In this document: piece after piece, positions 14,150 to 14,691 of the stretch | How the letters are laid out: each line of letters opens with the position of its first letter | Position numbering within the stretch: the first letter of the stretch is position 1 | NCBI RefSeq assembly: GCF_003319185.1 | Contig: NZ_QOHJ01000001.1 | Location: 806,001 to 870,000 of the forward strand | DNA length: 64,000 nucleotides | Origin: Blastococcus sp. TF02A-30 | GTDB lineage: Bacteria; Actinomycetota; Actinomycetes; Mycobacteriales; Geodermatophilaceae | Direction of reading: 5' to 3' | Translations under genes and position numbers: made by a program | Notes under the pieces: generated by a model | Told to the model about the DNA's origin: nothing | Database searches by the model: none | Seen by the model: only the letters and a program-made list of their open reading frames with translations

Positions 14150-14434
14150 TCAGAGCCGGCCGCGGCCCTGGCGGAGCAGCATCATGCCGAGCGCGGCGCC
14201 GTCGTCACCGAGCGCGGCGCGGAACCGGGCGAGCACCTGCTGCTCGCGGGAGAGGTTGAGCCGGGTGCCGCCGCTCGCGGACCGCAGGGCGCCGATCTGA
14301 CGGGAGACGGCGAGCCGCCGCTGCACCAGCGCGATGATCTCGGCGTCGCAGGCGTCGATCTCGGCGCGCAGTTCGGCGATCCGCTCCACGTCGGAACCGG
14401 TGACGGCGACAGGGGCGGGGGTCTGGCTGCTCAT
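14150..14434 (-). CDS. Chorismate mutase (AroQ class)
   Basis: A 94-residue all-helical AroQ mutase that converts chorismate to prephenate for Phe and Tyr synthesis. Visible elements are the first helix ERIAELRAEIDACDAEIIAL, VQRRLAVSRQIGALR with the Arg and Lys-type active-site positions, and SREQQVLARFRAAL. The N-terminal 15 residues are a disordered P/A-rich tail. The ATG at 14432-14434 follows AAGGA seven bases upstream. A 95-base leader upstream holds a hairpin and a short ORF with Phe-Tyr-Tyr codons, suggesting translation-coupled attenuation by aromatic amino acids. Confidence 0.9.
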   Translation of the reverse strand: MSSQTPAPVAVTGSDVERIAELRAEIDACDAEIIALVQRRLAVSRQIGALRSASGGTRLNLSREQQVLARFRAALGDDGAALGMMLLRQGRGRL

Positions 14435-14482
14435 GGGGTGTCCTTCGGGGGCTGGTGGTCCGCAGGGCCCCTGAGACGACGA

Positions 14483-14512
14483 ACGCCCCGGGGCTCTTCG
14501 GGCCCGGGGCGT
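14483..14512 (-). promoter_or_regulatory. Attenuator-type hairpin in the chorismate mutase leader
   Basis: Perfect 10-bp arms at 14483-14492 and 14503-14512 close a ten-base loop. It begins 16 bases after the leader-peptide stop codon and ends 48 bases before the chorismate mutase ATG. A modest T-containing run follows on the minus strand. Confidence 0.55.
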
Positions 14513-14528
14513 CTGTTGCGGCGGTTGC

Positions 14529-14591
14529 TCAGCCAGCGGTGACGGACACCGGATCCCGGTGGCCGTAGTAAAAGCTGACCGTGGCGAGCAC
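14529..14591 (-). CDS. Putative 20-residue Phe/Tyr leader peptide for chorismate mutase
   Basis: Read on the minus strand from GTG (14589-14591) the peptide is MLATVSFYYGHRDPVSVTAG, ending at TGA (14529-14531). Adjacent codons TTT-TAC-TAC encode Phe-Tyr-Tyr, the end products of the pathway. TTT is a very rare codon in this GC-rich genome. A terminator-like hairpin follows after 16 bases, then the mutase gene, which is the organisation of a classical attenuator. CAGACT lies seven bases before the GTG, so the transcript may be leaderless. The peptide is seen directly; the regulatory role is inferred. Confidence 0.6.
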   Translation of the reverse strand: MLATVSFYYGHRDPVSVTAG

Positions 14592-14691
14592 GTGCCGGAG
14601 TCTGCCACAGGCCCGGCCGGAACCGCCACGGGCGCTCTGGGACGGGTGTGGCTGGGGTTCTCCGCCGCCGGGGAGTGTCCCCCGGTCGGCT

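Follow-up and report, generated by a model that had tools for sequence, protein, structure and literature searches.

The gene for chorismate mutase in the analysed stretch of Blastococcus DNA, referred to here as the window (64,000 nucleotides), is preceded by a short frame with clustered aromatic codons and by a hairpin, which raises the question of whether this arrangement is accidental or whether it adjusts the expression of the enzyme to the supply of phenylalanine and tyrosine. An earlier note had read it as an aromatic amino-acid attenuator. Our analysis shows that the Phe-Tyr-Tyr frame and the hairpin before aroQ are genuine and not due to chance, and that they follow the known plan of leader-peptide attenuators, here on a chorismate mutase gene.

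The gene itself, aroQ (14150..14434, minus strand), encodes a protein of 94 amino acids with the Pfam domain CM_2, which scored above the cut-off with the NCBIfam models NF005894 (103.7 bits, cut-off 73) and TIGR01808 (76.3 bits, cut-off 52.15). The closest solved structure is 2QBV; among proteins of solved structure, the product comes nearest to the short intracellular Rv0948c enzyme. Judged by its sequence, aroQ is the short monofunctional AroQ chorismate mutase of the high-GC Gram-positives, in agreement with what had been claimed for the downstream gene. The motif GAAGGA (14441..14446, minus strand), named by eye, is its probable ribosome-binding site and lies outside both hairpins described below. 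On the far side, a gene for a UvrD/PcrA-type helicase runs in the opposite direction to aroQ from about 14707, with a start chosen by eye. A chorismate mutase was present in all 60 genomes examined, including the genome of the window; 36 of them belong to the same family.

The leader frame (14529..14591, minus strand) comprises 20 codons from a GTG start (14591-14589) to a TGA stop (14531-14529), encodes the peptide VLATVSFYYGHRDPVSVTAG and is probably translated from a leaderless mRNA. Its position and its codons TTT TAC TAC (14565..14573, minus strand) are as first reported, and the claim that such codons are rare in this DNA was borne out: TTT accounts for none of the 41 Phe codons in four genes of the window, and in a census of the short frames of the window (10-40 codons with ATG or GTG starts; 653 starts including nested ones, 361 distinct frames) no frame other than that of VLATVSFYYGHRDPVSVTAG had three F/Y codons in a row.

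In the Geodermatophilaceae, an F-x-Y-G core was found before aroQ in all 91 loci that were read with upstream sequence. These are made up of 86 loci from a first reading, which covered loci of 30 of 36 same-family genomes as well as 60 loci located on named genome contigs, and of five family members fetched later; L081 (cut off before the region) and L087-L089 (other phyla) were left out of the 86, and G014, where the gene lies at a contig end, is not in the count. As several genomes were reached twice, the loci correspond to 74 unique leaders, in every one of which codon 1 encodes Phe and codon 3 encodes Tyr. Codon 2 is variable (Y 38, F 17, S 11, A 5, P 2, L 1), which means that no Tyr is needed at the middle position and leaves a single Phe and a single Tyr codon as the sensor. 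The proposed Phe-Tyr-Tyr sensor therefore holds for its invariant outer codons, but not for the middle one. Synonymous exchanges between TTT and TTC and between TAC and TAT are present among the leaders of relatives. In the codon counts, from which L101, L108, L110, L113 and L114 were dropped, 81 of 92 unique leaders use TTT as the first sensor codon (14571-14573 in the window), against its complete absence from the four window genes. The same leader also stands in a contig titled Bacillus sp. AZ43 and marked unverified (L036), before a chorismate mutase 80% identical to that of the window; given this identity and the shared leader, the contig is probably a mislabelled member of the Geodermatophilaceae.

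Beyond the family, 24 genomes representing 15 other families of the order were read, and in 23 of them an aromatic leader precedes the gene; the exception is the genome of L097, which has no such leader there. A recognisable [F/L/Y/E][F/Y/L][Y/F]G core is present in 19 of these 23 leaders; the other four (L091, L101, L113 and L114) are loosely similar, and some of them could be chance frames. The leader is also found at L096, in a genome where the enzyme aligns very closely with Rv0948c. Run over 200 genomes of the order at E ≤ 0.01, a covariance model of the element gave matches in 184 and none in 16, and the weakest of the matches may be ordinary terminators. When 20 further order-level matches were read, picked from the stronger ones among the matches listed, all 20 had aroQ directly downstream and an aromatic leader.

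Two hairpins accompany the frame. The first, P1 (1:2, protector; 14543..14565, minus strand), pairs 14565-14556 with 14552-14543 around a loop at 14555-14553, lies inside the leader frame and has the wobble base of the Tyr codon as its first position; in the window its stem has one C-U mismatch. The second is a terminator-like hairpin (3:4; 14482..14513, minus strand) in which 14513-14503 pairs with 14492-14482, with a predicted energy of -23.5 kcal/mol and a weakly U-rich tail. Its core ACGCCCCGGG is separated from the leader stop by 16 bases (14528-14513), and the covarying stem has 11 pairs, the outermost a G-U. The earlier note had thus correctly placed a hairpin 16 bases behind the frame and ahead of the AroQ gene, and this hairpin is real and covaries, but P1 within the leader had been missed.

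Covariation was evaluated for nine P1 pairs and 11 terminator pairs in an alignment (A1) of 44 representative sequences. Here the Geodermatophilaceae were thinned to representatives, and L110, the divergent L091, L094, L101, L108, L113 and L114 and the leaderless L097 were left out. Ten pairs had changed on both sides as opposed to 4.9 in shuffles, with 55 cells against 19.1, counts that are inflated by related rows and refer to a structure read from the same sequences. Standard pairs occupied 92.9% of the cells compared with 86.8% in shuffles, none of 500 shuffles reached the observed value on any of five measures, and sliding the partners lowered every measure. Folding of the alignment by itself predicted both hairpins and added a pair between the Tyr-codon wobble base and its partner (12-34 of A1), which is C-G in 37, U-G in four and U-A in three sequences; of the seven sequences with U at this wobble position, three are compensated by A and four retain a U-G pair. 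The conservation of the residues that follow the sensor codons is largely explained by this RNA pairing. A consensus promoter and terminator scan called neither at the leader region, and single-sequence folding of the region was unremarkable (z -1.67); the signal for the element comes from comparison. Conserved Phe and Tyr codons, synonymous change and a covarying hairpin, the features for which a comparison of relatives had been suggested, were all found, and together with the conserved frame they support the attenuator layout. A small dyad at the leader stop (14537-14518; of the GTCTG..CAGAC type) is seen in several relatives and is weak in the window; as an extra element it reached a mean z of -1.39 in 21 sequences yet -0.34 in the window, and it is not claimed.

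The start of the leader message was considered next to a predicted promoter, the -10-like hexamer CAGACT (14599..14604, minus strand), which lies 7 nt upstream of the GTG and had, like P1, escaped the earlier note. A -10-like box and a start codon were located in 90 of 97 unique loci, with CAGACT in 52, CACACT in 25 and other hexamers in 13. The spacing between box and start is 6-7 nt in 86 of the 90 loci, the base preceding the start is C in 88, and 87 of the promoter-anchored starts share the reading frame of the core, at distances of 15, 18, 21, 33 and 36 nt in the in-frame loci printed. In the three out-of-frame loci (L014, L057 and L113), the script had picked an extra ATG 2 nt past the box, and an in-frame GTG is visible. 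These figures are descriptive, because the box score favours this shape and the sequences are related. The conserved spacing suggests a leaderless mRNA that would begin at the leader start codon.

An attenuator of this kind further calls for an alternative pairing, for which two segments are proposed. Segment 2 (14541..14552, minus strand; CCGG at 14552-14549 and CGTC at 14544-14541) is formed by P1's 3' arm together with the next bases, and it can pair with segment 3 (14504..14513, minus strand; GACG at 14513-14510 and CCGG at 14507-14504) in the 5' arm of the terminator, which is common to antiterminator and terminator. In a swap test with 20 diverse sequences of the 44, the native 2:3 duplexes exceeded between-species swaps in mean strength in each of six settings; among 2000 permutations, a fraction of 0 to 0.01 was as strong, and for 13 to 17 of the 20 sequences the native duplex beat the sequence's own swaps. 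Constrained folding gave at least four expected 2:3 pairs in 44/44 sequences with the ribosome placed at the Phe codon, in 43/44 at the Tyr codon and in 0/44 at the stop. Column by column, the 2:3 pairing showed no covariation beyond shuffles save a slight excess of paired cells. The duplex gained little over those formed with shuffled versions of segment 2 (mean z -0.74; -0.3 in the window), and a shuffled segment 3 still gave at least four pairs in 82% of trials, so that much of the pairing is explained by GC-richness. The antiterminator is therefore plausible and supported in part. Without a ribosome, equilibrium folding lets 2:3 outweigh P1, with a mean of 5.3 versus 2.9 expected pairs (3.8 versus 0.5 in the window) and at least four 2:3 pairs in 27 of the 44 sequences; P1 as the default state would accordingly need kinetic folding, i.e., an effect of folding order.

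Taken as a whole, the element is real and widely conserved, and its anatomy and the comparison with relatives indicate that it is very probably a ribosome-mediated transcription attenuator of aroQ that works through the leader-peptide frame and senses charged tRNA-Phe and tRNA-Tyr. Transcription would begin at the GTG or close to it; a ribosome would load on the leaderless 5' end and trail the polymerase. With both charged tRNAs plentiful, the ribosome would reach the stop and cover segment 2, the 3:4 hairpin would form and transcription would end before aroQ. If either tRNA is scarce, the ribosome would halt at the corresponding codon, Phe or Tyr, covering P1's 5' arm; segments 2 and 3 could then pair with each other, the terminator would be blocked and aroQ would be transcribed. 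In the absence of a ribosome, P1 might form first and termination would be favoured, which is the least supported step of the scheme. Sensor codons are few, only two, which counts against the attenuator reading, as do the weak U-tract of the window and the negative terminator scan. Because the same arrangement occurs in many soil-dwelling relatives, these cells probably gauge their own protein synthesis to time the production of the enzyme.

An explanation that we consider unlikely is that translation or coupling, and not an intrinsic terminator, mediates the effect of the leader, whose translation would either deliver ribosomes to aroQ or govern Rho-dependent termination. This would fit the weak U-tract of the window, where the first 10 bases behind the 3:4 hairpin contain four T, and the negative terminator scan; there are also precedents, as the available part of one source describes mycobacterial cysteine leaders without a conserved terminator (PMC1262725) and that of another states translation attenuation for cysteine leaders in Mycobacterium smegmatis (PMC13236596). 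However, a strong conserved hairpin covaries at a fixed place, at least five T occur in the 10 bases after it in 34 of the 44 aligned sequences (a run of at least four T in 11 of 44), and the hairpin ends about 35 nt ahead of the probable aroQ ribosome-binding site and does not include it. It is highly improbable that the peptide itself is the signal, as a nascent-chain arrest peptide with the conserved sequence F-x-Y-G-x-R-x-P-V; residues past the sensor codons are indeed conserved within the order, but the codons concerned form the arms of P1 and change with compensation, and in other families the peptide after the R differs (e.g., RPTGCHGRAA), yet the model still pairs the stem. Finally, a chance frame before an ordinary intergenic terminator, although GC-rich DNA contains many short frames and the covariance model also matches ordinary terminator-like hairpins such as that of groES-groEL in the same genome, is hardly conceivable in view of the conservation, the kept frame, the covariation and the sole F/Y triple in the census.

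Ribosome-mediated attenuation of aroQ can be compared with several known systems. The pheL leader of Escherichia coli contains seven Phe codons and has a bifunctional enzyme downstream. It resembles the aroQ leader as a Phe-codon leader ahead of a chorismate mutase activity, whereas before aroQ a single Phe codon is combined with a single Tyr codon, the start is probably leaderless and the enzyme is monofunctional. The pheL-pheA attenuator is named in PMC11802643, the available part of which also describes aroR-aroF of Corynebacterium glutamicum, where a Phe-Tyr-Phe leader controls DAHP synthase (Neshat et al., 2014, as described in PMC11802643) and answers to Phe limitation, not to Tyr availability. 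As far as this description goes, aroR-aroF is likewise an actinobacterial aromatic leader peptide controlling the aromatic pathway, but its target is the DAHP synthase gene aroF and not chorismate mutase. The actinobacterial ilvB, leu and trp attenuators share an often leaderless leader and the terminator and antiterminator hairpins, and differ in their branched-chain or Trp codons as opposed to Phe and Tyr before aroQ, according to the available parts of the sources (PMC1262725, PMC8079986, PMC13236596, PMC5784534, PMC11857589). In the part available, Seliverstov and others report no conserved structures upstream of other amino-acid pathway genes in actinobacteria (PMC1262725), and no Phe or Tyr leader is among the eight named for Streptomyces lividans in the available part of PMC8079986. 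Neither a leader on aroQ nor RNA-level control of an actinomycete chorismate mutase was found described in the literature searched (that outside subscription papers), and Rfam 15, including its T-box and riboswitch models, gave no match at the gathering score in the window or in eight loci that include that of the window.

The aroQ leader would thus add an RNA family that is missing from Rfam 15. The Actinomycetes include major producers of drugs derived from aromatic compounds, and a conserved, easily deleted leader would explain a response of chorismate mutase to the supply of Phe and Tyr and offer a direct handle for engineering aromatic flux.

At the level of the class, the covariance model matched 165 of 296 genomes at E ≤ 0.001, with many of the weak matches likely to be ordinary terminators. 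Reading of 44 matches, picked among the matches listed, placed 24 before chorismate mutase and 13 before DAHP synthase and showed seven to be something else; two of the DAHP synthase calls were checked with NCBIfam and the rest were made by similarity to one of those. The first 20 matches comprised eight before aroQ, six before DAHP synthase and six at unrelated terminators or gene ends (L166, L170, L172-L175), four more (L185-L188) all preceded DAHP synthase, and the next 20 comprised 16 before aroQ, three before DAHP synthase and one with nothing recognised (L223). A multi-species genus, probably Streptomyces, carries leaders such as MLTHPTFLFTYGNRPTGCHGRAA before aroQ; six of eight plasmid records matching the gene of this genus are from Streptomyces. 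The DAHP synthase leader of another family, MQRNFWRFYGYRPDTPVACRALR, contains Trp codons beside those for Phe and Tyr, and leaders with Trp, Phe and Tyr were found before DAHP synthase at 13 loci of this one family (L163, L165, L167, L168, L169, L176, L185, L186, L187, L188, L224, L228 and L229).

DAHP synthase catalyses the step that feeds Phe, Tyr and Trp alike, and for the proposal that one ancient leader family of the Actinomycetes governs entry into aromatic amino-acid synthesis, with sensor codons matching the end products, we see the chances as evenly balanced. The shared plan would consist of aromatic codons followed by Y-G-x-R or a relative of it, a hairpin starting from the Tyr codon and probably a leaderless mRNA, and the codons would correspond to the end products in both cases, i.e., Phe and Tyr for chorismate mutase and Trp, Phe and Tyr for DAHP synthase. 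The Trp-containing version would permit a natural test of this matching of codon to product. In the genome of the window, no separate aromatic short frame was found just upstream of the class II DAHP synthase gene. Besides aroQ, the model search of this genome gave 12 matches at E 0.006 or worse, among them two (L123 and L124) on the opposite strand of the aroQ-leader site. The best of the others (L121, 1540-1590) is a GC-rich terminator-like hairpin between groES and groEL, both named by eye, and is possibly a partial terminator. A match of a Streptomyces plasmid to the leader region was rejected, as it is merely a terminator-like hairpin. Of the eight plasmid-borne chorismate mutases found, three were read (L231-L233), those of two Streptomyces and of Tsukamurella, and none of the three has the leader. 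The Streptomyces plasmid copies adjoin a gene for a non-ribosomal peptide synthetase or amino-acid adenylation protein and one for an LmbU-family regulator.
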